Shown in pieces: positions 17,727-23,813 of a stretch of 23,813 nt of DNA. The translations under genes and the position numbers were made by a program. The notes beneath the pieces were generated by a model. It was not told where the DNA came from, did no database searches, and saw nothing but the letters and a program-made list of their open reading frames with translations. How positions within the stretch are numbered: position 1 is the stretch's first letter; every line of letters starts with the position of its first letter. Where the stretch lies: positions 1-23,813 of the IMG/VR virus record IMGVR_UViG_3300031705_000980; one strand, 5' to 3'. This stretch comes from a virus.

Positions 17727-17949
17727 AGAAAAGTTGATAGTCACTATTACTGACCTGTCAACACTAATAGACAAATCCCCTCGCTCAATCGAACACGCGA
17801 TAGCGCGCGGTTCAGACTGGCTACCGCCGGGGTTCCGAATGGGTAAGAGATGGTGTTGGTTGAAGAAAGATATTGAAGCGCATCTTATCAAACTTGCCGA
17901 CCGCTCAGTTAAACCGTCACGAGTTGGGAGGCCACGTCGCCATGTTTAG
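17716..17949 (+). CDS. xis: Excisionase-like HTH protein (recombination directionality factor)
   Basis: 77 residues. ITDLSTLIDKSPRSIEHAI is a winged-helix/MerR-like helix, followed by GFRMGKRWCWLKKDIEAHL, the wing and second helix typical of AlpA/Xis-type proteins; the tail is basic (RVGRPRRHV). GGAG lies 8 bases upstream. It would bind attachment DNA and turn the integrase toward excision. It is the last gene of the rightward operon, and its TAG (17947-17949) overlaps the TAA of the opposing integrase gene, so it is made only when the early operon is read through. The excisionase role is inferred from fold, size and position. Confidence 0.7.
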   Translation: MEAKEKLIVTITDLSTLIDKSPRSIEHAIARGSDWLPPGFRMGKRWCWLKKDIEAHLIKLADRSVKPSRVGRPRRHV

Positions 17950-18926
17950 CCCAGTTTCAGGGCTATGTTAGATGGACTCAAGTGCGTATAGGCCAGCAGC
18001 ATTTTCAGGTCTTTGTGACCTGTGATTCTTTGGACCTCTACTATTGACAAGTTATGCACTTCAAAGAAACGGCTTGTGGCTTCGTGCCGTAAGTCGTGTA
18101 AGGTCAAACCTTCGATCCCTGCCCGCTTGCATGCCTCTGAAAAATGGTAGGTGGCTATGCTGGGCAAGTGATCCCAGACCTTACCCGTCTTGCTTAATAT
18201 TTCTACTTCTCTCAGCACTCGAATTGCCCGACGGGACAAAGGCACGTCCCTCTTGTCCCCATTTTTGGTCACGCTCAAGTGCGCAAAACGCTCTCTATAA
18301 TTTATTTGCGCAAACTCAAGGCTGCATAACTCTCCCCTTCTCATCGCGGTGTATATAGCCAGACGCACAACAGGTCGGAGAGAAGGTCTACCGACTACAA
18401 TCTCCCGCATCAACCGCCGATACTCGCCGTATTGCAGGCGTCTACTCCTGCTATTCGGCACTTTCGGTTTATCAACCCCAACCGTCGGGTTAACCAAGTT
18501 CTTATAGCCCCATCGGGTAATTGCTTTTGTATAGAGATGGCTGATAACGGCTAGTTTCTTTCGGACTGTCCCCGGCGAGTTTAACGACTCGTCGGCAAAC
18601 GCTTGGATGTGGTCGGACGTGATATCGTCTAGCTTATAACCAGCCAACTCGTGCCGCTGCCAGATACGGATGTTGCACATCTCGCTGGCTACCCCTCTTT
18701 TCTTACTTGTAACCTCTTCACCGTAACGCTTTAACGCTTCACCCAGTCTTGGTATGCTTACCCCCAAGGAACGGCCTAAGTATTTATCCGCGAGAACGTC
18801 ATGCTCAAGACCACTGGCGAACGCCTCCGCGTCTCGGCGTGTGGCAAATGTTCTGCTCATACTAGGAGCGTTCTTGCGCCTGATCTGTGCGCGAAACTTC
18901 TTGCCGACCTTGGTTATCGTAGCCAC
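17946..18926 (-). CDS. int: Tyrosine site-specific integrase
   Basis: 326 residues from a GTG start, with GGGAG about 9 bases upstream. The N-terminus (ATITKVGKKFRAQIRRK) is an AP2/arm-type DNA-binding domain, then a SAM-like core-binding domain (about 55-160). The catalytic domain has Arg in TAMRRGEL (about 194), Lys in VTKNGDKR, HDLRHE (about 275), GHKD (about 300) and the nucleophile Tyr in AYTHL (about 313). All the expected catalytic residues are present, so it should be active. It recombines attP with the host attB. The gene faces the early operon tail to tail, so rightward transcription runs antisense over it, which would favour excision on induction. Confidence 0.92.
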   Translation of the reverse strand: MATITKVGKKFRAQIRRKNAPSMSRTFATRRDAEAFASGLEHDVLADKYLGRSLGVSIPRLGEALKRYGEEVTSKKRGVASEMCNIRIWQRHELAGYKLDDITSDHIQAFADESLNSPGTVRKKLAVISHLYTKAITRWGYKNLVNPTVGVDKPKVPNSRSRRLQYGEYRRLMREIVVGRPSLRPVVRLAIYTAMRRGELCSLEFAQINYRERFAHLSVTKNGDKRDVPLSRRAIRVLREVEILSKTGKVWDHLPSIATYHFSEACKRAGIEGLTLHDLRHEATSRFFEVHNLSIVEVQRITGHKDLKMLLAYTHLSPSNIALKLG

Positions 18927-19325: not shown

Positions 19326-22300
19326 TTAAAACTGATAGGGTTGTGGCCCTTTCCCGTCTTGCTGCTGACCACCTTCGTTCATCGCGGCTCGGATCGCCTT
19401 CGCCGTTACTGAGTTGCGGATATTGTCGCTGGTCACTTGCATAGTGGGGTTCTTTACGCTGAACCTTCTAATGGCCGCTATCGTTTCTCCCGACAGTCCG
19501 CCCCCACCATTTATATCTTTCCTCGCCTGTTTCATTAGCGCGTCCCTGCGATCGCCAAGCTTTCTAAGCTTCGTCATTTCGATCCGGTTCCTAGTGTACT
19601 GCAACTGAAGTTCAGTAGGCGAAAAACCCAGAGTCTGCAACGCCAGCTCCCACCCGTTGAACTCATCAGCTTCTATAAGAGGTAGGTTTTCTGAGTTCGT
19701 TGCACCTTCTAGGTTGTATCTAACCGACTTACTGACGTCCCGAACAAACTTAGGCACTACTTTCTCAGCCCCCTTCCAGTATTCACCCTCTTTAAGCAAC
19801 TCCTTCGCGTCCATAAACATCCCTAAGACGCCACCAAGAACCGGACCAGCCATTTGCAAACCGAAGTGGGCTAACTGCTCTCGGCCTTCCTTGCCGTTAT
19901 CTTGTGGCTGAATAAAGAGACGTAGAATATCTGGCGCGACTCTCAAGCCAACGCTTCCCCCTACCAACACGTCAGTAGGACCGTCAACGACAATCTGCCC
20001 GAGAAGGCTGGCTAACTTTTCGTCCTTGACGGCGTCATTTATCATCAGGTAAACCCCTTCACGCAGCTCGCCCTCAAAGTCTTTCGGCTCATCCTCGTCC
20101 CCAAATAGGTCTTCAAGAAGGTTCCAAATTGTCTTGACTACCGAGTAAACAAAGACGCCTTGGATTCCAGAGAACAGCATGGATATAGCCACCGACGCGA
20201 GGGATCGATTCACCATCTCCCGCTTAACCACCGGATCGGTTTCATCCGATAAGTTAACCGCCACATAGGCGTCCCGCAAAACACGGAACGACATATTGAG
20301 CGCGTACTGTTTGTACTGCCCGATCACTTTTGCGGCTGGGAGTCTGAGAATCCGAGGTCGGCCCGCGTTGCTATAGTCGAAGTGTACGTCGAGAGTCACG
20401 TTGTATGCGTAGTCCAAGGCCACGTTGTAGTTCTGACCTCCTGCTATTGCCATGCGGAAGGCAACCATCGCAGTGACTTCTCGGTTAAACACTTCCGCGT
20501 TATGGAAGCTTGCCGAAATTCTGTCCACTACGACTCGGCCCATCATTGATCGGTTCATCCCCTCGTCGCTGATGCCCGCGAGGTCGTGCGCACGAGTCTT
20601 CTCGAAAAGGCTACGCCTGACCATCTCTTGATAAAACTCCAGCTCGACGCCTTTGAGGCTGTCGCTCCAATGTACCTTCATGTCGTTCTCGAGGAACACA
20701 GTCTTGTCTTTAGCTCTCACGGCTATGTTTGCCGCGATGACACCTGAAAACTCGTTTGTCGCCTTGGCGAATGCGGCAGCGGTTTTAGAGTAGCCATACC
20801 TCGCCCCTATGACGGGTATCCCTACCATCGGAGTCTGGAAAGTGTTTATCAAAGCGGCGGCAGGAGAAACCCCCAACTGGTAAATAAACCCGAGGCTGGT
20901 CAAAGTTGAGGCCCACGGTTTGTTGGTCGGGTTCATCGCCCAGTCAACCCCGTCCTCTATCTCACGGAGAAGGCGACCAGCAAAAGCAGAGTCTTTCAGA
21001 GAATTGGACTCTTCTTTAGCTCGCACCAGCAAACCTCGAATCACATCACCGTGCCGCAACTTTGTAATGTGGTGAGCGTGGTGCAACGCGATAGAAGAAT
21101 AGGCCCGCATGGCGTCCTCATCCCAGCCTTTTACCTTGCCCCTGTGAATGGACTGCTTGCGGATCGACATCTCTGGCAGAGTCTGTAGGTAGAGTTGCCA
21201 CACCGCATCGGCCAGCTCAAATTGCTCCTTGCGACCTATGCCATCAGCGTTCTGGATAAGCCCCGTTACGGCGCTGGCGTACTCAGGATCAACTTCTTGG
21301 AACGAGCTTTGCTCTTCGTCTTTAACGCCCTTCTTAGAAATCCAAGTCGGATGTTTTTTCTCCATGTCGTTCTGATACTGAAGTGCTTGCTCGTTAGTCT
21401 CAAATATTCGGAACTCTTCGGTCACTTCTTTACCGTCCACCACCGATTTCAGTACCACAAAGTGTTCACCGAATCGGGAGAGAGGAAAGTACGGCCCACG
21501 CACTTCGTTGCTTTCAAACGCTATCCGTAACTTGTCAGCCATAGCAGTACGGACTGTCTCGGACATCTCAGCTCGTTCGATGCGGTCGGCCAGCTCTTTG
21601 TGCATGGCACTGCGCTGCCGTCCGTATTCATCCCTGACTCTGTTGTACAGGTCTTTTGCTTCCTTAGATAACGCAGAGTACCGAGAGTCGAGTCCCGCCT
21701 GCGCGTTCTTGCGCGTCACCTCGTCAGCTCTCTTCTGTTCTAGGGCTTTAAGAAGCCCGCTGTAACGCAGCCTCTGATCGGCAGTCCCAGCGGAGCGCAT
21801 CTTAGTAGAGAGCCGCGTCTTCTCTTTGAAGTATTCTTTCTCGGTGAGTATCGACTTGTATGGCGCAGACGGGTCGTAGCCCACCAGCGTCGTGTCGTGC
21901 ATTAAAGTGTGTAGTTTGCTCGCCATCTTCCTGTTCTTGCGCGCCCAGCGATGCCATATATTAAGCACCTCGCCAGCGTCAGACAGTATCTGGTTACGGT
22001 CTGCGTCCATCTGCTCCGCCTGTCGGATCACTTTAGCCGCAGTGGGCATTTCCTCGGGGATTATTTCTGCGAGCGCACGTCGAGGCAGAAGCGACAACAG
22101 GGATGGCCGTTGAGAGATCATCCGCTGGAATCGGTTTTGCGTGTTTGCTGTAGTGGGTAAACGCCCGCCTCTGCCCTCGGAGTCAATAGACCCTAAGAGA
22201 TCGGCCAAGCCTTCTAGCCCTGACTGCTCCGTGTCGTTGCGACGGGAGCCGAGTATGTCAGAGTCTAGCTGTCCTGCTCTCCCTCGGGCTGAAGCTCGAC

Positions 22301-23813
22301 GGGTAGGTTTGACATCTCCTCGGGATCGGTTAGAAGCTCCTGTATCTCTTCCTCCGACCTGTCTGGGTACGCCATCGTCATATACATCGCGGCTGTAAGT
22401 GCCATTTGCCTTCCGATCATTACGTCCAGAATCGGATCGGGATGCCCATCCGGGTACATCTCCTTTAGTTTTTGCGAGTCCATAAGCTTCTTTCCTCACT
22501 TTAGCGAGGGTCATTTTACCCTCGGCAAATTGTTTCCACAAGGCGTTTATTTTTAGGAGGTTGACTGATTCCGTGTCCTTAAACTTCTTGGGATAAATGA
22601 CGCGAATCTCCTCCCATGTAATGCTTTGCAGCTCACGCGGTAGCAGCCCTAACTCGGCAGCCGCTTCTCGATAGGCGTCGGCTACGATGCCGTATATTCC
22701 GCCTATGCCATTTGATTTTGAACTCCCTGCGCCTGCACGTTCTACCCCTTCTGGTATGCCACGCAAGCCTTTTACGGGAGTACCGCCAAAGACGTGAGCG
22801 ACCTCATAACTCTTTGCCGACAAGGGCTTGAACACCGCCGCCGCCATTGCGTGGGTGTCAATAGTCACCTCACCCAGATTACTGTTGGGTGCGATAATGT
22901 TGTTGTAAAAGTTTCTGACCTTGTGCGCGCCGCCCAGACTCATCGACACCGATTCCAGTGACCCGTCTTGCAACACCCTCATCGCCTTGGCGATCTCAGT
23001 GAACGAACCCCACGCAACAGACGAGGGTGTAACACCGTCGTCGTTCATCGCAAGCCCAATGATTTCGCCTGTTGGCTTCATCATGCGGTACTGGCGAGAG
23101 TGCTTCGCTTCGTCGTACATGCGTACCCAGATCGAGACAGCAAGGTTGCCATCACGTTCGGAGACGAGAGACCTCACGTCAGACAGCTTGGCGTTTTTAA
23201 TCAAGCCCCATATCTCACGGTATTCTCGTGTCTGGGCTACCTTATCGGATTCACCCTTCCGTGGGTTTTTGCTGACTATGATCAGCTTGCCTTTGTCGTC
23301 CCGCATCACGACGCGGTTAAACGCTTTGTCCATGTCCTTGTCTGCGGTCGCGTCTTGGCGGTAGGTATGGATGTCCATGATCCGCTCGGCCAGAGACATA
23401 TTCATAAACCAGTCTTTTTGTGGTGACAAGTTAGCAATAACAGCAGCCACCTGTCTCGACTCTAACCCATACCGAGCAGACCAGATGTCTACGTTCTTGC
23501 GCGCGCCGTCGTACCACTTGCGGGCAGTCTCTCTAAGGTTGGGGTCCATCTGATTGTGCAGCCAGATCAGGTTCTTCACCATGAACTGCTTGAACTCGTT
23601 GATGGTCTCTTCCGCAGTCAGGTCTGACCGAGAAGGGGTAAAGAAGTCGTAGCCCTCAATAGTTTTCTTTTGTGTTTTAGCGACTTTTTCAACGGACAGT
23701 ATACGGTCAACGCCTATCGAATATTCTTCGGGCGCACCTGTAATATAGTAGGGTACTTTGTTTTTCATCCCTGACGGCAACGACGTCTGGACGCGATCCT
23801 CACCACCCTTAAC
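19326..23813 (-). CDS. Large internal-virion/polyvalent-type protein, 5' end beyond the window
   Basis: The frame is open to the right edge, so the visible ~1,495 residues are a C-terminal portion; an internal TTG (23780) or ATG (23768) could be a start but the upstream codons look coding. Numbered from 23780, about 60-150 has KWYDGARKN and AAVIANLSPQKDWFMN, as in the DUF7178-like domain of large phage proteins; about 430-540 is a low-complexity Arg/Gly/Ser/Asp linker; about 550-900 is long charged helix; about 950-1200 has FDYSNAGRPR and hydrophobic segments, resembling the LPD38-type large polyvalent protein domain; about 1200-1225 is hydrophobic. Such proteins are thought to be ejected with the DNA. 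No transglycosylase or peptidase motif is visible. The domain names are from pattern memory and moderately sure. Confidence 0.75.
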   Translation of the reverse strand, partial: VKGGEDRVQTSLPSGMKNKVPYYITGAPEEYSIGVDRILSVEKVAKTQKKTIEGYDFFTPSRSDLTAEETINEFKQFMVKNLIWLHNQMDPNLRETARKWYDGARKNVDIWSARYGLESRQVAAVIANLSPQKDWFMNMSLAERIMDIHTYRQDATADKDMDKAFNRVVMRDDKGKLIIVSKNPRKGESDKVAQTREYREIWGLIKNAKLSDVRSLVSERDGNLAVSIWVRMYDEAKHSRQYRMMKPTGEIIGLAMNDDGVTPSSVAWGSFTEIAKAMRVLQDGSLESVSMSLGGAHKVRNFYNNIIAPNSNLGEVTIDTHAMAAAVFKPLSAKSYEVAHVFGGTPVKGLRGIPEGVERAGAGSSKSNGIGGIYGIVADAYREAAAELGLLPRELQSITWEEIRVIYPKKFKDTESVNLLKINALWKQFAEGKMTLAKVRKEAYGLAKTKGDVPGWASRSDSGRNDRKANGTYSRDVYDDGVPRQVGGRDTGASNRSRGDVKPTRRASARGRAGQLDSDILGSRRNDTEQSGLEGLADLLGSIDSEGRGGRLPTTANTQNRFQRMISQRPSLLSLLPRRALAEIIPEEMPTAAKVIRQAEQMDADRNQILSDAGEVLNIWHRWARKNRKMASKLHTLMHDTTLVGYDPSAPYKSILTEKEYFKEKTRLSTKMRSAGTADQRLRYSGLLKALEQKRADEVTRKNAQAGLDSRYSALSKEAKDLYNRVRDEYGRQRSAMHKELADRIERAEMSETVRTAMADKLRIAFESNEVRGPYFPLSRFGEHFVVLKSVVDGKEVTEEFRIFETNEQALQYQNDMEKKHPTWISKKGVKDEEQSSFQEVDPEYASAVTGLIQNADGIGRKEQFELADAVWQLYLQTLPEMSIRKQSIHRGKVKGWDEDAMRAYSSIALHHAHHITKLRHGDVIRGLLVRAKEESNSLKDSAFAGRLLREIEDGVDWAMNPTNKPWASTLTSLGFIYQLGVSPAAALINTFQTPMVGIPVIGARYGYSKTAAAFAKATNEFSGVIAANIAVRAKDKTVFLENDMKVHWSDSLKGVELEFYQEMVRRSLFEKTRAHDLAGISDEGMNRSMMGRVVVDRISASFHNAEVFNREVTAMVAFRMAIAGGQNYNVALDYAYNVTLDVHFDYSNAGRPRILRLPAAKVIGQYKQYALNMSFRVLRDAYVAVNLSDETDPVVKREMVNRSLASVAISMLFSGIQGVFVYSVVKTIWNLLEDLFGDEDEPKDFEGELREGVYLMINDAVKDEKLASLLGQIVVDGPTDVLVGGSVGLRVAPDILRLFIQPQDNGKEGREQLAHFGLQMAGPVLGGVLGMFMDAKELLKEGEYWKGAEKVVPKFVRDVSKSVRYNLEGATNSENLPLIEADEFNGWELALQTLGFSPTELQLQYTRNRIEMTKLRKLGDRRDALMKQARKDINGGGGLSGETIAAIRRFSVKNPTMQVTSDNIRNSVTAKAIRAAMNEGGQQQDGKGPQPYQF
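22265..22483 (-). CDS. Nested out-of-frame ORF inside the large virion-type gene, 72 residues
   Basis: It starts at ATG 22483, just after an in-frame TGA, with AGGA 9 bases upstream. The product begins MDSQKLKEMYPDGHPDPI and continues through a Met/Ala-rich helix and an acidic helix (RSEEEIQELLTDPEE) to an acidic end. Its composition looks like a folded protein, whereas the same DNA in the host frame codes for a low-complexity Ser/Arg/Gly/Asp linker. This asymmetry suggests true dual coding, with selection mainly on the nested frame. Function is unknown; it could be an embedded virion or regulatory protein. Confidence 0.5.
   Translation of the reverse strand: MDSQKLKEMYPDGHPDPILDVMIGRQMALTAAMYMTMAYPDRSEEEIQELLTDPEEMSNLPVELQPEGEQDS

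Follow-up and report, generated by a model that had tools for sequence, protein, structure and literature searches.

A predicted family of small, usually acidic phage proteins encoded behind DUF7178 and often nested within giant polyvalent proteins

Introduction

In two-component spanins such as Rz/Rz1 of phage lambda, the upstream partner gene is accompanied by a small gene in its +1 frame, and embedded, overlapped and separated arrangements are found, which annotation often misses (PMC6139136). The survey that described them found no family in which embedded members occur alongside other architectures, and suggested that the loss of a stop codon, followed by read-through, might be one way in which genes become embedded. 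Multidomain giants with LPD or DarB-like domains are known as polyvalent proteins (Iyer et al. 2017, PMC5512222). Nothing in the parts of that article covered by our text search suggests a gene embedded in another frame ("overlap" does not occur; "nested" occurs twice, the displayed instances referring to protein structure).

Here we analyse a locus that resembles both systems, in a viral DNA stretch of 23,813 nucleotides (positions 1 to 23,813 of IMG/VR record IMGVR_UViG_3300031705_000980), called the window below. A first-pass annotation had proposed a gene within a gene in the linker of a large virion protein, and every available sequence test supports the gene within a gene. The host ORF, with its LPD39 domain (PF18858) and DarB-like C-terminus, is itself built like a polyvalent protein, and the small gene lies, as in Rz/Rz1, in the +1 frame of an upstream partner. 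This partner is DUF7178 (PF23802), which occupies the upstream position in the window as it does in each of the 151 loci of our survey; the nested protein belongs to a separate family without a Pfam model. The literature that we searched does not mention DUF7178 or PF23802.

Results

The ATG-started ORF lies exactly at the position given, in an alternative frame and behind a Shine-Dalgarno (SD) sequence as described; the strand, which had not been mentioned, is minus (Table 1). The ORF extends from an ATG at 22483-22481 to a TAG at 22267-22265 and, as also described, opens after a TGA of its own frame, found at 22498-22496, five codons 5' of the ATG. It lies 17 nt beyond the end of the DUF7178 match, and its offset of 1297 in the giant ORF (1 modulo 3) corresponds to the +1 frame. 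No other ORF of at least 60 aa in another frame exists on the minus strand inside the 4.5-kb giant. The product is predicted to be acidic (pI 4.05) and helical. A stable hairpin, at most a candidate element of the nested gene, is predicted just 5' of the SD sequence in the window and in contig L012, with no excess in L008 or L036. Promoter scans and Rfam gave nothing useful.

The containing frame had been read as a linker, and it is indeed a G/R/S/D-rich stretch between DUF7178 and LPD39, with a pI of 10.9 in the window versus 4.6-5.1 in other giants. The DarB-like region of the giant shares about 27-31% identity with the best phage "DarB-like" proteins. It is plausible that the giant is a large virion protein, judging from its DarB-like and LPD39 domains and from a 942-aa ORF upstream of it (L007:144-2972) with a match to phrog_2206, a family of virion RNA polymerases (E 8e-34). 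A phage integrase gene (PF00589, window 17946-18926) adjoins the giant, so that the phage is probably temperate. At the other end of the window, positions 253-1659 encode a DUF2201 metallopeptidase/VWA-like protein, and GC content reaches 0.61-0.66 in the first 2 kb (1-2165) versus about 0.48-0.59 over the remainder.

Table 1. Coordinates of the features discussed in the text (window positions unless a contig is named)
Feature	Position	Strand	Remarks
Giant host ORF	19326..23813	minus	cut by window edge; full length 2,925 aa on contig L007
DUF7178 domain of giant	22500..23690	minus	PF23802 E 6.1e-27; score 460 with HMM built in this analysis; directly upstream of nested gene
Hairpin GAGGGT/ACCCTC (predicted)	22505..22524	minus	just 5' of SD; z -3.0
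SD sequence GAGG of nested gene	22494..22497	minus	10 nt 5' of ATG; overlaps TGA 22496-22498
Nested gene, 72 aa	22265..22483	minus	+1 frame of giant ORF
Host-frame linker over nested gene	22265..22485	minus	pI 10.9; not conserved between clades
LPD39 polyvalent-protein domain	21483..22130	minus	PF18858 E 2.2e-31; start of C-terminal partner
DarB-like antirestriction C-terminal region	19368..21548	minus	phrog_10089 E 4e-117
DUF7178-protease/capsid fusion, small gene between	L072:4585-8292		partner with Peptidase_S78 and HK97-type capsid matches
DUF7178 fusion with L072-homologous partner, small gene nested between	L080:3813-7517		
Inverted small gene	L051:5956-6165; L058:3689-3910; L060:983-1549; L069:1807-2013		convergent to DUF7178

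An initial scan with the DUF7178 part of the giant gave 38 loci. At nearly all of them an ORF of 60-100 aa in the +1 frame starts where DUF7178 ends; at about ten the DUF7178 gene itself stops there, leaving the small gene stand-alone or overlapping. We thus built a family HMM from nine stand-alone members of other uncultivated phages, excluding the window. This HMM matches the nested frame of the window (E 8.5e-6, model positions 14-67) as well as the nested copies of other giants, with E values from 4e-6 (L008) down to 4e-17, and has no off-target match among 12,929 six-frame ORFs. Stand-alone homologues, which the first-pass annotation had considered decisive, therefore exist. The family consensus reads G-DPvl-ll-k-glPlTRENYL-LAYp-g-Pe-ltaE-EaeLP-elr, and the median pI is 4.44, with 87% of members under 6 and 13% at 6 or more. 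The family has no match in Pfam, NCBIfam, PHROGs or the PDB. Single members compared with family libraries gave a best E of 0.0063, each weak family being matched by one member only, and when isolate phages and plasmids were searched by tblastn with one member at a time, no credible match appeared. An AF2 model of the small protein displays five short helices at moderate confidence (pLDDT 77), and a fold search with it returned no match. Altogether, sequence comparison confirms that the nested ORF belongs to a new, uncatalogued family of small predicted proteins, about 60-80 aa long and usually acidic.

Related DUF7178 domains are present in three isolate phage records. One of them, OP947163 from Rhodobacteraceae phage LS06-2018-MD07, likely contains a divergent, unlisted +1-frame copy of the small gene inside a CDS labelled "methyltransferase" (E 8.6e-5, by HMM only). 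The HMM found no copy in the other two, CRP-738 and zth2-2; by inspection there is none in CRP-738, and zth2-2 has only stop-broken frames in a locus that stops at the record end. In the Parvibaculum class, 385 genomes were examined; the small protein was found in one, the source genome of the query itself, and DUF7178 in two. On a Parvibaculum indicum contig (L046:7842-8177), the small domain stands in frame behind an apparent remnant of the DUF7178 C-terminus, and is probably prophage debris.

Two further scans, each taking the nearest 80 of more than 500 relatives, led to a survey set of 151 non-redundant viral DUF7178 loci; for collection scans with the small family a second alignment was used, the first one being too diverse. 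The small gene is located at the DUF7178 3' end in 130 loci, a proportion (about 86%) that is no estimate for DUF7178 as a whole since the sample leans to relatives of the window and of L008. No match was detected away from this 3' end across the 151 loci, and when only loci fetched by DUF7178 alone are counted, the small gene is present in 89 of 101. Its arrangements comprise 49 copies nested in a giant, 45 nested in a DUF7178 tail, 26 overlapping, 4 separate, 4 convergent antisense and 2 at a contig edge, every nested copy being in frame +1. In L051, L058-L060, L063 and L069, DUF7178 lies on the opposite strand, tail to tail with the small gene and with overlapping stops. Adjacency is thus kept even when the small gene is inverted, and this points to a functional link. 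In L060 and L063 the inverted small gene additionally carries an in-frame N-terminal fusion to a part that by eye resembles DUF192. Two tandem copies follow DUF7178 in L048 (5998-6492) and L049 (3690-4184), and a 572-aa ORF of L075 (6016-7734) has the small domain as its N-terminus. In L016, portal and DUF7178 precede the small gene, and scaffold and major head protein follow it, in this order.

No small-gene match was obtained in 21 of the 151 loci, about a dozen of which appear to lack the gene. The DUF7178 3' ends of L023, L029, L032 and L158 bear instead a different or very divergent +1 ORF with an LT/SLEEAY-like motif. Homologues that keep the large protein and lack the nested frame, which had been put forward as evidence against the gene, are consequently found in a minority only (about 12 to 21 loci, or about 8-14%). 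They indicate that some lineages can do without the small gene or have replaced it.

An ATG preceded by an SD sequence of at least 4 nt is present in 108 of 124 loci, and any start with an SD sequence in 114, while the background at random positions is 21%. We infer that translation starts internally behind DUF7178, by re-initiation or coupling.

We then considered which of the two frames is conserved. The giants of the window and of L008 are 64% identical in DUF7178. Outside the nested gene, they differ mostly at codon position 3 of the DUF7178 frame; inside it, most differences fall at host position 1, equivalent to position 3 of the nested frame (Fisher p 8e-4). Over 18 independent giant pairs, changes at the three nested positions number 230/219/383 and those in the flank 1461/1031/3026 (p 5.7e-48 for the switch), and 19 tail-nested pairs give p 2.0e-63. 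The comparison of codon changes per frame that had been suggested thus reveals a switch to the nested frame. The switch persists (p 2.4e-37 and 9.5e-69) when DUF7178 identity decides the pairing and the alignment follows the host frame, so that it is not created by the frame of the alignment. In eight of nine giant pairs, similarity in the nested frame exceeds a synonymous-shuffle null (z 4.8-13.4), the window-L036 pair being not significant. Similarity of the host-frame linker is low between clades (window versus L012: nested 59, host 22). Nested position 3 changes more slowly than flank position 3 (0.34 versus 0.48), which suggests that the host frame, or signals in the DNA, are still under some constraint. 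On this substitution pattern the nested frame is under purifying selection of its own, as is required of an embedded overlapping gene. The codon-position pattern designates the nested frame as the conserved one and the linker of the giant as largely its by-product.

The giants themselves are heterogeneous. Those of the window and of L008 have DUF7178 and the nested gene in common and are then unrelated in the alignment (LPD39 versus LPD38, the latter also contained in the L012 giant). The C-terminal partners of 44 giants form eight clusters without mutual BLAST matches, one of which carries prohead protease and capsid domains. On a DUF7178 tree (FastTree, unrooted, with many long branches), there are 14 changes between fused and unfused states, at least six of them forced by well-supported branches. 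Combined with the existence of stand-alone and antisense copies, these partner clusters and tree changes suggest that a pre-existing gene was entrapped by read-through fusion.

Discussion

Taken together, the data are best explained by a real gene of a mostly acidic, helical family that accompanies DUF7178 in dsDNA phages and has been embedded by run-on of the upstream frame, with a proposed partner role and translation by re-initiation or coupling; we give this joint reading a probability of about 0.8. In many phages the DUF7178 frame, having no stop at its 3' end, continues into a tail or into a large polyvalent protein. The small gene is thereby embedded, its DNA is read as a linker in the host frame, and the frame of the small protein is the main target of selection.

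One would wonder whether the nested frame could be an untranslated, chance open frame of a low-complexity linker. Other frames are often open in GC-rich linkers, and when the codons of the window linker are shuffled synonymously, the nested frame stays open in 29% of cases, so that openness by itself is weak evidence. However, homology and substitution pattern exceed chance: an independently built HMM ties the frame to stand-alone homologues, the gene is confined to the DUF7178 3' end, and the codon-position switch and SD enrichment point the same way. The idea can be regarded as refuted by these sequence data, and we give it almost no weight. Slightly less remote, and still very improbable, is a +1 frameshift extension of DUF7178. 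The constant +1 relation of nested copies would suit it, but most loci have their own ATG and SD sequence, and separate, antisense and independently fused versions exist. Classical overprinting, with an older host linker inside which the small gene was born, deserves more consideration, embedded forms being common (clearly so in 94 of 130 loci) and an unrooted tree giving no direction. Nevertheless, at separate and antisense loci the small protein occurs without an overlying host frame; the linker is the unconserved frame and is poorer in order-promoting residues (21% versus 30% in the small protein); and the C-terminal partners share no mutual match. We thus consider overprinting improbable, and infer entrapment by read-through fusion rather than birth in the linker. 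The first-pass annotation had left the choice between a linker free to host an overprinted gene and a linker that is a by-product of the nested gene. The second fits better, since the small protein occurs without the host frame and the linker is unconserved between clades, and the first is less favoured.

What the small protein does is a more delicate question. The adjacency makes a functional pair with DUF7178 our best guess, in which the small protein would most likely be a chaperone or a holding inhibitor. It may act as a binding partner of the DUF7178 protein, helping its assembly or holding it inhibited; it would be made in the head/packaging module and possibly be delivered together with the DUF7178 protein. 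DUF7178 displays many invariant polar residues, as expected of an enzyme. Searches of the PDB yielded no fold match at E<=0.001 for its AF2 model (pLDDT 85) and no sequence match for its profile; assignment to the HhH-GPD-type DNA glycosylases, considered for its K..NFY and DTH motifs, was dropped for lack of any such match. A strong rival is that the gene is real and encodes an independent small late protein, such as an acidic anti-restriction protein, a DNA mimic or a head accessory, that travels in the cassette. The low median pI, the DarB-like nature of the window's giant, the position between portal and scaffold in L016 and the fusions to other ORFs in L060 and L075 would all suit such a protein, whereas the adjacency to DUF7178, which holds across giants with different partners and after inversion, argues against it. 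We regard this independent role as quite possible, at somewhat less than an even chance. The most specific form of the partner reading, namely that the virion delivers a DUF7178 enzyme whose dedicated partner is kept beside it by nesting, overlap or convergence and was entrapped as a pre-existing gene by repeated fusions, is more doubtful still, and we propose it tentatively. If the partner reading were true, a previously unseen effector-partner pair would be hidden across hundreds of phage genomes.

Whatever its role, the family is widely conserved and uncatalogued, and gene callers can miss it inside larger genes. In reading polyvalent architectures it should also be borne in mind that a linker of a giant phage protein can be the by-product of a trapped gene.

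A parallel can be drawn with the spanins, from which the present system nevertheless departs. The host is DUF7178 and not an inner-membrane i-spanin. The window product contains no Cys, and only one of 124 members has any, so that, unlike an o-spanin, the small protein has no lipoprotein signal and no lipobox. Unlike in spanin families, separate, overlapping and inverted members occur here in one family with members embedded in a tail or in a giant, and such mixed arrangements let the read-through route to embedding be studied directly. The finding is thus new at the level of the family, and its arrangement is an unusual variant of embedded phage genes such as Rz1.
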